Source: Agromyces italicus DSM 16388 (GTDB lineage: Bacteria > Actinomycetota > Actinomycetes > Actinomycetales > Microbacteriaceae). Taken from it: a stretch of DNA of 64,000 nt. Positions within the stretch are counted from its first letter, which is position 1; each line of letters begins with the position of its first letter. Position numbers and translations under genes: made by a program. Positions 22,908 to 59,483 of the stretch are shown one piece after another. The stretch spans positions 620,001-684,000 of the forward strand of contig NZ_ATXF01000005.1 of NCBI RefSeq assembly GCF_000421545.1, in the 5' to 3' direction. The notes beneath the pieces were generated by a model. It was given only the letters and a program-made list of their open reading frames with translations, ran no database searches and was not told the origin of the DNA.

Positions 22908-23401
22908 CTGAATGACCTCCGATTTCGAGCTCGTGCGGGCGAGCGACCCGCGCCCGCACTCCAGTGTCATCGGAGCCACCGACACCGGCTCATCGACGCG
23001 AGGAGACCCACTGTTCGTGGGACGCTGCTTCACGATATGAGCGGCTCGACCACAGCACAAGCCGCCCTGTGGATAACTCTGGGGAGAATCTGGGCGAAAC
23101 GCCGTTCAACATGTGCATTCCGCCTGTGGAGAACTGTGGAATTGGTTCGAATTACATGGGTTGAATTCAGAGTTGATCAGGGATAAATACTATGCACACC
23201 TGTGGAGGAAAACTTCTTCGACGACATTCCCCACCCTGTTCTCCACCTGTGTACAACAGTCACAGGAAACCCGGATGCGGACTTGCGCGGAGACCGCGCT
23301 CGGGTGTAGACGCGCGTCGGGTTTTCGAGCACGCGAGACACCCGTCCGGGGGACGTCGACAGACCCGCCACGTGGCATCCGACGCCCCTCGAACACGACG
23401 A
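22908..23401 (-). promoter_or_regulatory. dnaB upstream region with a DnaA-box cluster
   Basis: This long gap has no convincing gene. It contains a perfect DnaA box TGTGGATAA (23068-23076), then TGTGGAGAA (23125-23133), TGTGGAATT (23135-23143), TGTGGAGGA (23201-23209) and near-boxes around 23238-23256 (TTCTCCACC, TGTGTACAA). AT-richer DNA lies at 23140-23200. It probably controls dnaB in response to DnaA. Confidence 0.65.
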
Positions 23402-45086: not shown

Positions 45087-45095
45087 GTCGGGTCC

Positions 45096-45187
45096 GTGGG
45101 TTGAGGAGGGAGCGCAGCGACCGTCTCGAAACCCGTCCCGCCGCTACCTGGGGTTTCGAGACGCTCCTCCGTCGCTCCTCAACCCAC
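45096..45187. repeat. Long inverted repeat, REP-like family A, copy 2
   Basis: GTGGGTTGAGGAGGGAGCG... pairs with ...CGCTCCTCAACCCAC, with inner arms GTCTCGAAACCC and GGGTTTCGAGAC. It shares GAGACGCTCCTYCGTCGCTCCTC with the copy at 60293. It lies between the dnaA stop and oriC, and may act as the dnaA terminator. Confidence 0.85.
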
Positions 45188-45230
45188 CGAACGGCTTCTG
45201 CAGCGACCCTGCAGACCGATCTCAGCACGC

Positions 45231-45475
45231 TTCCCACAGTTGTGGAGAACCTGTGGATTGTTAACGAGCAACCGCCTGATGACTGTTGAGACGCACCGCC
45301 TGCCTGTGCAGAACGGTGTGATGCATTCGAGCCGACCCCGATGCGGCGCCGCTCGAATCCACACACCGTGCACAGATCTGATAGCCCGCGATCGGCGTCG
45401 TTCCGCGGGTCTCTGAACACCATCCACAGTTTCCACAACGGTTAACACCGTTAAGAGAGAGTTGATTAAGGGGTG
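45231..45475. other. oriC: Origin of replication oriC
   Basis: The dnaA-dnaN spacer holds clustered DnaA boxes in both orientations: TTCCCACAG (45231), TGTGGAGAA (45241), TGTGGATTG (45252), TGTGCAGAA (45305), GAATCCACA (45355), CCATCCACA (45420) and TTTCCACAA (45430). An AT-rich stretch with the inverted repeat AACGGT/ACCGTT (45437-45452) and GTTGATTAAG follows, a candidate unwinding element. GC is visibly lower than in flanking genes. Exact edges are uncertain. Confidence 0.9.
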
Positions 45476-45618
45476 ATTCCCACAACCTCGTCGTCGGCGA
45501 GCGTCGAGCGAGGTCCATCCGAGCCGAAGCGATCGTTCGCGCAGGGGATTCTCCGACGCCGTCAACAGTCGTGCGGATAGCATGGGAGCCACCAAGCGAC
45601 ATCCACGACGGGAGAACC

Positions 45619-57277: not shown

Positions 57278-58135
57278 GTGAACGACTCGGGGCCTGATCG
57301 CTCGGACTTCTGCTATCGGCATCCCGATCGGCAGAGCTTCGTGCTGTGCCAGCGCTGCGGGCGCACCATCTGCCCCGAGTGCATGACGCAGGCCGCCGTC
57401 GGCGTCGTCTGCCCCGAGTGCATGCGCGAGCAGCGAGCGAGCGCGCCCCGCACCAAGCCCGCCGTGCTCACGCGCGTGCGCTCGGCGGCGGGGCGCGGGG
57501 CGCCGGTCGTGACGTATTCCCTGATCGGCATCACGCTCGCGGTGTTCGTCCTGCAGTTGATCCCCGGGCTCGCGATCACCGACCGCCTGCTCTATGCCGG
57601 CGTCTACTCGATCCCCGGCAACCTCGAGCCATGGCGCATGATCACCTCGGTGTTCGTGCACTCCACCGGGCTCATCTTCCACGTGCTGCTCAACATGTAC
57701 ACGCTGTGGATCTTCGGGCAGTTGTTGGAGGGCCTGCTGGGCCGCTGGCGGTTCCTCGCCCTGTATCTGATCTCGGGCCTCGGCGGTTCGATCGGCGTGC
57801 TCTGGCTCTCCGATCCCCGGGTCGGCGTGGTCGGCGCGTCGGGTGCCATCTTCGGTCTGATGGGCGCGTTCCTCGTGATCCAGCGCAGGCTCGGCGGACA
57901 GACCACCCAGTTGTTCGTGCTGCTCGGCATCAACCTGGTGATCGGCTTCGTGCCGGGCTTCAACGTCGCCTGGCAGGCGCATCTCGGCGGACTCGTGACG
58001 GGCGCTCTGGTCGGTCTCGTCTTCGTCGAGACGCGCAAACGCTCGCAGCAGGCGCTGCAGGTCTGGCTCCTCGTCGGCGTGGTCGCCGTGCTCCTCGTCC
58101 TCAGCCTGCGGTACTTCTTCTTCCCGGTCTTCTGA
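57278..58135 (+). CDS. Rhomboid-family intramembrane serine protease
   Basis: A 285-residue protein with an N-terminal zinc-binding B-box-like segment (C-x2-C repeats in FCYRHPDRQSFVLCQRCG and TICPECM, VVCPECM) and six or seven membrane helices. The catalytic dyad is Ser188 in GASGAIFG and His235 in AHLGGL; HVLLNMYTLW gives the conserved His/Asn. It cleaves membrane proteins; substrate unknown. GTG 57278 is 8 bases after ppiA. Confidence 0.93.
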   Translation: MNDSGPDRSDFCYRHPDRQSFVLCQRCGRTICPECMTQAAVGVVCPECMREQRASAPRTKPAVLTRVRSAAGRGAPVVTYSLIGITLAVFVLQLIPGLAITDRLLYAGVYSIPGNLEPWRMITSVFVHSTGLIFHVLLNMYTLWIFGQLLEGLLGRWRFLALYLISGLGGSIGVLWLSDPRVGVVGASGAIFGLMGAFLVIQRRLGGQTTQLFVLLGINLVIGFVPGFNVAWQAHLGGLVTGALVGLVFVETRKRSQQALQVWLLVGVVAVLLVLSLRYFFFPVF

Positions 58136-58168
58136 CGGTTCGCCGAGGCACTCGGGCCCCGGCGCCAC

Positions 58169-58290
58169 TTATCCACACCCCTTTCCACAGCTGTTGAGAG
58201 TTACATCGGTGTCATTCCCGAGATCCCAGTGATCACGCGGATTTGCACTTGTGCACAACTGTGGAGAACTGTGGAGAAGCCTGTGGGAAA
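58169..58290. promoter_or_regulatory. DnaA-box cluster between rhomboid and crgA genes
   Basis: Within 122 bases: perfect TTATCCACA (58169-58177), TTTCCACAG (58182-58190), TGTGCACAA (58250-58258), TGTGGAGAA (58260-58268), TGTGGAGAA (58270-58278) and TGTGGGAAA (58282-58290). The last four are tandem at 10-12 base spacing. The clusters are as dense as in oriC, about 13 kb away, with no gene in 58136-58303. Confidence 0.75.
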
Positions 58291-58303
58291 CTCGAACTGC
58301 CAT

Positions 58304-58340
58304 GCGAAAAGGGCGGATGCCGAAGCATCCGCCCTTTCGC
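58304..58340 (-). terminator. Terminator of crgA
   Basis: GCGAAAAGGGCGGATGC (58304-58320) and GCATCCGCCCTTTCGC (58325-58340) form a 16-bp stem with one bulged A and a CGAA loop, 17 bases beyond the crgA stop. Confidence 0.8.
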
Positions 58341-58356
58341 GTGTCGAGAGCCGGCG

Positions 58357-58599
58357 TCAGCGCCAGCGGGTGGTCATGAGGAAGCCGACGAAGGCGATGC
58401 CGAAGCCGATCAGGATGTTCCACGAGCCGAGGTCGGCGATCGGGAATCGGCCCTGACTGATGTAGAACACCAGGATCCACGCGAGTCCGAGCAGCATGAA
58501 GCCGAACATGACGGGCTTGAACCACACCGGGTTCGGTGCCTCCTCGCCGCTCGCTGCGACTTCAGCGCGCGTCGGCTTCGATGATTTCGTACGTGCCAT
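58357..58599 (-). CDS. crgA: Cell division protein CrgA
   Basis: An 80-residue protein with two helices (PVMFGFMLLGLAWILVFYI and NILIGFGIAFVGFLMTTRWR), the FPIADLGSWN loop and the NPVWFKP start, all typical of CrgA. In mycobacteria and Streptomyces CrgA links FtsZ, FtsI and FtsQ at the septum. Its neighbours here are division and cell-wall signalling genes. Confidence 0.95.
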   Translation of the reverse strand: MARTKSSKPTRAEVAASGEEAPNPVWFKPVMFGFMLLGLAWILVFYISQGRFPIADLGSWNILIGFGIAFVGFLMTTRWR

Positions 58600-58670
58600 G
58601 CCCGTGATTCTAGCCGAGGCCGCCGTGCACTCACAGCGAGAAGTCCGTTCGGACGAATAGAATCGCCCCT

Positions 58671-59483
58671 ATGTCCGAGTCGGTGCCCGACGGCCGGCGC
58701 GCACGCCGCGCCGAGCGGTCGACAGCGCGCCCCAAGCCTCGAGTGAGCGTCGTCGGCGTCCTCGGCGAACTGCTGCTGACCGCGGGGGTGCTGATCCTGC
58801 TGTTCCTCGGCTGGCAGTTGTGGTGGAACGACGCGATCATGGCCGGGCAGCAGTCGCAGGCCGCTTCAGAGCTCAGCGATCAGTGGGCCGAGCAGGATCG
58901 CGCGGCGCGCGGCGACACCCCGCCGCCCGCGCCCGAAGACGTCGGCGAGCCGGTCGTCGACACCACCGGGTACGCGAATGCCGAGCCCTTCGCCGTCATG
59001 TACGTCCCGCGCTTCGACAGTGAGGGCACGCACGACTCGGCGCGCAATATCGCCGAGGGCTACGGCCTCGACGTGCTCAACAGCTTCGACCTCGGCGTCG
59101 GCCATTACCCAGGCACCCAGATGCCCGGCGAGGTCGGCAACTTCGCGATCGCTGCGCATCGCAGCGCCTACGGGGGCGGGATGCACGAGATCGAGCAGCT
59201 CCAGCTCGGCGACGCCATCTACATCCAGACGAAGGACGGCTGGTACACGTACCGCTTCCGCGACTTCGAGTACGTGACCCCGGCGACGAGCGGGGTCCTC
59301 TCACCGGTTCCCCACCACCCCGAACTCCAGCCGACCGACCGCATCATCACGCTCACGAGCTGCAACCCGCTCTACTCGACCGACGAGCGCATCATCGCGT
59401 ACGGGGTGCTCGAGTCGTGGCAGCCTGGGGCCGCGAACCCGCCGGCCGAGATCGCCTCGGTCGTCGCAGAATGGGGCGACTGA
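58671..59483 (+). CDS. Class E sortase
   Basis: A 270-residue membrane-anchored transpeptidase that attaches proteins (LAxTG-type signals) to the cell wall or pili. It has a basic N-terminus, one membrane helix (about residues 30-50), His163 in AIAAHRSAYGG, and catalytic Cys231 in TLTSCNP with Arg in ERIIAYG. It lies in the known actinobacterial pairing with pabA and PASTA kinase genes. It forms an operon with the small protein and pabA. Confidence 0.93.
   Translation: MSESVPDGRRARRAERSTARPKPRVSVVGVLGELLLTAGVLILLFLGWQLWWNDAIMAGQQSQAASELSDQWAEQDRAARGDTPPPAPEDVGEPVVDTTGYANAEPFAVMYVPRFDSEGTHDSARNIAEGYGLDVLNSFDLGVGHYPGTQMPGEVGNFAIAAHRSAYGGGMHEIEQLQLGDAIYIQTKDGWYTYRFRDFEYVTPATSGVLSPVPHHPELQPTDRIITLTSCNPLYSTDERIIAYGVLESWQPGAANPPAEIASVVAEWGD

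Follow-up and report, generated by a model that had tools for sequence, protein, structure and literature searches.

A conserved DnaA-box cluster with a predicted McdR/ResR operator near oriC of Agromyces and its relatives: a candidate DnaA-control locus

In the 64-kb stretch of Agromyces italicus DNA analysed here, hereafter the window, a short gap separates the convergent genes of a rhomboid-family membrane protease and the cell division protein CrgA. This gap contains a dense cluster of DnaA boxes, a predicted operator of the MerR-family regulator McdR/ResR and a hairpin. These features are listed below in order of position, together with two further regions near the replication origin.

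23068–23256: separate DnaA-box cluster upstream of dnaB (rplI–dnaB gap), from the box scan, with a weak operator-like site at 23150–23167 (2 mismatches)
45087–45570: dnaA–dnaN gap, the presumed oriC and reference point, with 3 boxes at ≤1 mismatch
57278–58135, plus strand: rhomboid-family membrane protease gene (Pfam PF01694), start picked by eye within a frame open from 57161
58136–58356: element-bearing gap between the convergent rhomboid and crgA genes, from the Pfam Rhomboid and CrgA matches and the gene layout
58169–58177, plus strand: DnaA box 1, TTATCCACA, perfect (TTWTNCACA scan)
58181–58189, plus strand: DnaA box 2, CTTTCCACA, 12 bp after box 1 (TTWTNCACA scan)
58192–58200, minus strand: degenerate box 3, TGTTGAGAG, with 3 mismatches and a 2-bp overlap with the operator (alignments)
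58199–58216: predicted McdR/ResR operator, AGTTACATCGGTGTCATT, 1 mismatch to AATnACAnnnnTGTnATT (consensus from the available text of PMC9040748, and conservation)
58249–58258: palindromic DnaA box pair, TTGTGCACAA (TTWTNCACA scan)
58260–58268, minus strand: DnaA box, TTCTCCACA (TTWTNCACA scan)
58270–58278, minus strand: DnaA box, second copy of TTCTCCACA (TTWTNCACA scan)
58282–58290, minus strand: DnaA box, TTTCCCACA (TTWTNCACA scan)
58308–58337: hairpin with a 13-bp perfect stem, probably a terminator that both convergent genes share, found as an inverted repeat and given no score by terminator prediction
58357–58599, minus strand: crgA, cell division protein CrgA (Pfam PF06781)

The nearest named locus is that of A. 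lapidis, with 98% identity in the rhomboid protein. DnaA boxes were scanned across the window as TTWTNCACA with ≤1 mismatch and compared with 100 shuffles, giving 23 matches against 8.3 ± 2.9 in shuffled sequence, where 0/100 shuffles reached 23. Seven of the 23 matches fall inside 58169–58290, where 0.016 would be expected in 122 bp; since TTGTGCACAA at 58249/58250 matches on either strand, they amount to six positions. This is the box-richest 122 bp of the window, with a Poisson probability of six or more boxes of about 2e-14 at the shuffled rate. A preliminary description of this DNA had reported six boxes in 122 bases, one of them perfect, and four boxes phased by 10–12 bases, and both statements were borne out: the box at 58169 is perfect, and steps of 11, 10 and 12 bp (58249 to 58260 to 58270 to 58282) accompany the 12-bp step from 58169 to 58181. 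Dense DnaA boxes outside oriC, as expected of a titration cluster, are present at 58169–58290.

The same description had equated this density with that of oriC and had called the site a second cluster about 13 kb from the origin. The site is indeed dense, but the comparison was too low an estimate, since only 3 boxes (≤1 mismatch) lie in the dnaA–dnaN gap and 2 in the gap before dnaA. Its distance from the dnaA–dnaN gap is 12.6 kb, much as claimed, but a further oriC-proximal cluster is found upstream of dnaB. Boxes upstream of dnaB occur in 29/30 relatives (the best-scoring 30 of 59 genomes with a match), with a mean of 5.6 per 600 bp, whereas control stretches taken downstream in the same locus gave 0.1, and an operator with ≤2 mismatches accompanies them in 1/30. 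The dnaB-upstream cluster also holds the AT maximum of the four regions compared, at 0.675 per 40 bp.

The rhomboid gene and crgA converge on the site and both end there; therefore the site is neither a promoter nor upstream of crgA, and the hairpin sits between the box cluster and crgA. No sigma-70-like promoter was found in 58050–58420, no Rfam model passed its gathering threshold in 57900–58700, and a search for a plasmid match found none. An AT-rich unwinding stretch is likewise lacking, as the maximum AT content of the site is 0.55 per 40 bp compared with 0.625 at oriC.

Alignment of the loci revealed a palindrome, AATTACACNNGTGTAATT, directly beside the boxes. This 18-bp palindrome at 58199–58216, absent from the preliminary description, is among the best-conserved parts of the site. 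Its exact core, TTACACNNGTGTAA, occurs in 0–2 copies per genome and in 49/120 genomes of the family, with the backwards control positive in one genome. Among the 30 loci listed, exact cores map to the crgA site, to nrdH promoters that also carry DnaA boxes and to WhiB-gene promoters, and some are unplaced. In the own genome of the window, a looser form of the palindrome at 2 mismatches gave 7 matches against 15 for the backwards control; since it is no commoner than this control, the motif is informative only through its place or conservation. Several regulators were rejected as binders of the palindrome: the BldD box has a 1-nt spacer compared with 2 in the site, and the spacing of NrdR differs as well. 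The motif forms given in the available text of the respective sources do not fit either, namely TCACcCgnncGgGTGA for BldM (PMC4125116), the asymmetric GACAC for WhiA (PMC3781837) and direct repeats of GTnAC for MtrA (PMC6265350).

According to the available text of PMC9040748, and also PMC10336103, McdR/ResR (Rv1830, MerR family) represses whiB2 via AATnACAnnnnTGTnATT. Operators were scored with this published consensus, which is mycobacterial and independent of the loci studied here. Herein, 58199–58216 was the best of 3 window matches with ≤3 mismatches to AATnACAnnnnTGTnATT, where shuffles give 1.6, and it differs from the consensus by 1 mismatch. An operator with ≤2 mismatches was found in 28/28 Agromyces, 46/53 other Microbacteriaceae and 49/85 other-family crgA flanks, leaving 36/85 of the last group with none at that threshold. 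Control flanks gave 0/28, 0/52 and 1/84, respectively (1/164 in total), and shuffles 5/830. Furthermore, in 54 named loci (361 kb), all operator sites with ≤2 mismatches (53/53) had a DnaA box within 80 bp, and 51 had two or more. One Streptomyces-sized genome (G281) carries boxes at crgA, but no operator with ≤2 mismatches. At three loci, two operators about 45 bp apart symmetrically flank DnaA boxes (L373 at 2134906 and 2134949; L374 at 318430 and 318475; L372 at 46996 and 47042; record coordinates).

Conservation of the boxes was followed in the 500-bp 3' flanks of crgA. After removal of duplicates and of loci without a usable crgA match, 166 unique flanks were left of 176 loci entered, comprising 28 from Agromyces, 53 from other Microbacteriaceae and 85 from other families of the order and class. 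The mean number of boxes per flank was 3.25, 3.08 and 2.28 in these three groups, compared with 0.16, 0.27 and 0.30 in shuffled flanks and 0.0, 0.26 and 0.13 on the opposite side of crgA. Lack of conservation in relatives had been named beforehand as grounds for abandoning the cluster; it is conserved over these 166 flanks. In 80 loci with a crgA match, the neighbours converge in 75/80, and 77/80 carry one box or more. Within Agromyces, the position of box 1 (offset -30 from the operator) is occupied in 24/28 loci, that of box 2 (offset -18) passes at 1 mismatch in only 4/28, and a further box at least 60 bp beyond box 1 was found in 25/27, while a 12-bp tandem box step is common among other Microbacteriaceae. 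In loci with a long gap (L047, L061, L068 and L076) the boxes remain beside the rhomboid gene; where the gene order is broken, they lie near crgA in L073 and L077 and none is found within 600 bp in L048 and L070.

The chromosomal place of the site was assessed by the distance from crgA to dnaA in 71 genomes with reliable coordinates, with one exception single-contig, three of the initial 74 having been excluded (G080, G120 and G338). In 49/71 genomes, including 27/28 Microbacteriaceae, crgA lies at +10 to +60 kb from dnaA, a conserved oriC-proximal place of the kind expected of a titration cluster. In the remaining 22/71 it falls outside this range, and in four of these it is 570–740 kb from dnaA. 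The datA/DARS-like role put forward in the preliminary description would fit this usual place near oriC. In one family (f12, L345–L347; genomes G130, G262 and G235), crgA is 570–740 kb from dnaA and no composite was found in the 19 kb scanned near dnaA.

For twenty genomes whose 500-bp crgA flank gave no operator (17 from one set of 20 stretches, plus G281, G202 and G184), the scan was widened to 19–19.5 kb on the dnaA side; four had an operator with DnaA boxes, one a weak site (G198) and 15 none. In G306, an exact operator with one box lies about 10 kb from dnaA, and crgA is 30 kb off on the other side of dnaA, about 40 kb from the site. G169 has two operators at a distance of 4 kb from crgA. 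In G202, several boxes and two operators, both at 2 mismatches, lie about 3.6 kb from the gene, and in G184 three boxes accompany an operator at 1 mismatch, 0.9 kb from crgA. These operator-plus-box sites apart from crgA indicate that the element is separable from the gene; in some lineages it was apparently lost or relocated.

A closer relation between the two motifs is seen outside Agromyces. At 29/46 crgA sites of other Microbacteriaceae, a minus-strand box at 1 mismatch lies at offset -7 from the operator; starting 7 bp before it, the box overlaps the operator by 2 bp. With ≤2 mismatches allowed, such an abutting minus box occurs in 43/46 other Microbacteriaceae compared with 3/28 Agromyces, and its sequence is often TGGGGATAA in the former and TGGGGAGAG in the latter. 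Because the overlapping box is degenerate in Agromyces, direct competition between DnaA and McdR would be weaker in this genus.

The same motifs were examined at whiB2-like, nrdH and dnaB genes, each searched in 60 genomes, of which 59, 35 and 59, respectively, had a match and the best-scoring 30 were used. The -7 box offset recurs in 22/30 nrdH promoters (best-scoring 30 of 35 genomes), and 24/30 have an operator with ≤2 mismatches. An example is the nrdH promoter of L142 (G000:C9:203500–209500), where an operator overlaps one of the DnaA boxes, NrdR-box-like sequences are also present, and nrdI and nrdE follow. In whiB2-like promoters (best-scoring 30 of 59 Microbacteriaceae genomes), an operator with ≤1 mismatch is present in 30/30 and adjacent boxes are absent; at L143 2509–2526 (G000:C4:686008–686025) it lies between -35- and -10-like sequences. 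Here, Pfam gave Whib for the whiB2-like product and Glutaredoxin for NrdH, and the names whiB2-like, nrdI and nrdE come from reading of the proteins.

A candidate mcdR gene is present in the genome. In Agromyces, a GarA/OdhI-like FHA gene (below the NCBIfam cut-off), ftsR (NCBIfam FtsR, above it) and a 190-aa MerR gene (Pfam MerR_1) follow one another. In another family the order is FHA–ftsR–bfn–MerR, which we take to be that of Rv1827–Rv1830, and its MerR protein is 69% identical over 160 aa to that of Agromyces. The probable identity of the Agromyces MerR gene beside ftsR with mcdR rests on this gene order and on the conserved operator. The neighbour route through the PF02577 gene gave nothing, as in Agromyces no MerR gene lies beside it. 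An adjacent pair of MerR genes, 0.7–1.6 kb apart, was found in 20/20 genomes, including G130, G262 and G288, in which the scans described above did not find the site; presence of the regulator therefore does not imply that of the site. In the genome of the window, a gene judged by eye to be ParA-like is convergent to the mcdR-like gene.

In Mycobacterium smegmatis, overexpression of mcdR gave more DNA copies near ori, and dnaB and dnaN were activated (PMC9040748, available text). DIP-seq of McdR gave five peaks; the targets named in the available text are whiB2, MSMEG_0833 and MSMEG_5468, and the present site is not among these three (PMC9040748). A word search of the main text of that paper returned 0 hits for dnaA, crgA and nrd, and the effect of McdR on copy number may be indirect.

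Boxes, operator, their fixed overlap, conservation in much of the class, the usual place near oriC, the lack of promoter-like sequence and the reuse of the overlap at nrdH can all be read from the sequence, and they would best fit a conserved non-promoter DnaA-control locus near oriC (datA/D78/DBC/DARS-like) that is gated by McdR. This reading is given a probability of about 0.5. DnaA would load onto the boxes of the element, and the MerR-type division regulator McdR/ResR would bind the predicted operator, which overlaps one box in most non-Agromyces Microbacteriaceae. The element may hold or inactivate DnaA, as a sink or in a datA-like manner, and binding of McdR would alter this hold; in the simplest case, McdR would evict DnaA from the box that the operator overlaps. 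With more McdR, DnaA would then become available to oriC, and at the same time whiB2, and so division, would be repressed. In Agromyces, with its degenerate form of that box, McdR may work on boxes nearby or via distortion of the DNA. The element would thereby set the amount of active DnaA reaching oriC, and McdR would modify that control.

Several known systems offer partial parallels. In Streptomyces coelicolor, Smulczyk-Krawczyszyn and colleagues reportedly described in 2006 the clusters H69, H24 and D78, of which, judging by the cosmid names, H69 may presumably correspond to the crgA site and H24 to that at dnaB. These are likewise oriC-proximal actinobacterial DnaA-box clusters, but we know of no McdR operator at them, and the Streptomyces-sized genome mentioned above has its boxes at crgA without one at ≤2 mismatches. 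The E. coli datA locus is also a DnaA-box cluster outside oriC, working with the accessory protein IHF (available text of PMC5295017 and PMC5742627), but its glyY–queG gap has no three-box triplet within 45 bp. In Bacillus subtilis, several DnaA-box clusters (DBCs) lie outside oriC and their joint removal leads to early initiation (Okumura et al., 2012, via PMC5295017); this is a different phylum, however, and the operator of a second regulator is not described in the available text of that review. There, a strong effect is said to require deletion of all six clusters, and another passage of the same review calls their role not significant (PMC5295017). The clusters of both S. coelicolor and B. 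subtilis are stated to repress untimely initiation (review PMC5742627, available text). Finally, the mycobacterial whiB2 operator of Rv1830 has the same 18-bp consensus, whereas the predicted operator at the crgA site adjoins DnaA boxes and lies outside any promoter.

Other readings of the site have to be weighed against DnaA control gated by McdR. One is rather unlikely, namely that the site reactivates DnaA in the manner of E. coli DARS1 and DARS2, three boxes assembling ADP-DnaA into a complex from which ADP is released, and McdR, perhaps bending DNA like MerR proteins, playing the part of IHF and Fis in switching it on. DARS2 requires these further DNA-binding proteins (available text of PMC5742627, PMC4245941 and PMC8682772). 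Both DARS loci, as read from the K-12 genome, have the order + - - with steps of 14 and 12, and in many other Microbacteriaceae the mirror image of the site resembles them, with a three-box core in which two tandem boxes are 12 bp apart and a single box is opposed. Triplets of the form ++- occur there at 1 mismatch with steps (12,10) in 15/46 and (12,9) in 10/46, and 49 other-family loci give, at 2 mismatches, +-- (10,13) in 12 and ++- (13,10) in 11. The geometry departs from DARS, however, in that the opposed pair is mostly 0–1 bp apart instead of 5 bp, its start-to-start step is 9–12 in ++- triplets instead of 14, and box orientation varies between families. In addition, the site is close to oriC, it has a predicted McdR operator instead of IHF/Fis sites, and the third box is degenerate in Agromyces, where the triplet is found in 0/28 loci at 1 mismatch and 3/28 at 2 and the window's third box has 3 mismatches. 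This reading predicts more initiation upon a rise of McdR; displacement from a sink implies the same. The sign of a deletion phenotype would distinguish the two, more origins pointing to a DnaA sink and fewer to a DARS-like reactivator.

It also appears unlikely that DnaA and McdR serve a local transcript here, whether that of crgA, that of the rhomboid gene or that of an RNA as yet unannotated in the gap. The crgA product is a division protein, McdR regulates transcription at whiB2 and nrdH promoters carry both motifs, but at this locus the genes converge on the site, the hairpin intervenes before crgA, and neither a sigma-70-like promoter nor an Rfam family was detected in the intervals given above. 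The boxes, moreover, stay beside the rhomboid gene in long gaps and near crgA in the broken order of L073 and L077. The control of crgA proposed in the preliminary description is accordingly disfavoured, given also the four genomes with operator-plus-box sites apart from crgA. Quite unlikely is a role in chromosome organisation, in which McdR and DnaA would label the region around ori so that it is segregated or positioned, and leave initiation unchanged; the usual oriC-proximal place and the ParA-like gene near the mcdR-like gene speak for it, but the overlap of DnaA and McdR sites is found again elsewhere in the genome, at nrdH promoters, which suggests regulation. An auxiliary origin of replication or an outlying segment of oriC, also suggested at the outset, has the box density in excess of oriC in its favour; with no AT-rich unwinding stretch, and with the site 13 kb from oriC here and crgA 10–60 kb from dnaA in most genomes, it is very improbable. 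The probability of a chance cluster is negligible, considering the Poisson estimate and the conservation over many families.

DnaA-box clusters outside oriC are already known. The open-licence literature searched did not show an McdR operator placed on such boxes, its recurrence at nrdH or conservation across the class, and in this respect these points are new. More tentatively, the findings may point to an actinobacterial type of DnaA control in which the division-restraining MerR protein McdR/ResR gates DnaA on a three-box core near oriC, the overlap at nrdHIE sets dNTP supply and the operator at whiB2 sets division, so that one regulator would tie together initiation, precursors and septation. 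A cis-site for the effect of McdR on copy number near ori is not described in the available text of PMC9040748, and the element is a concrete candidate for the place at which replication initiation may be coupled to division in actinobacteria.
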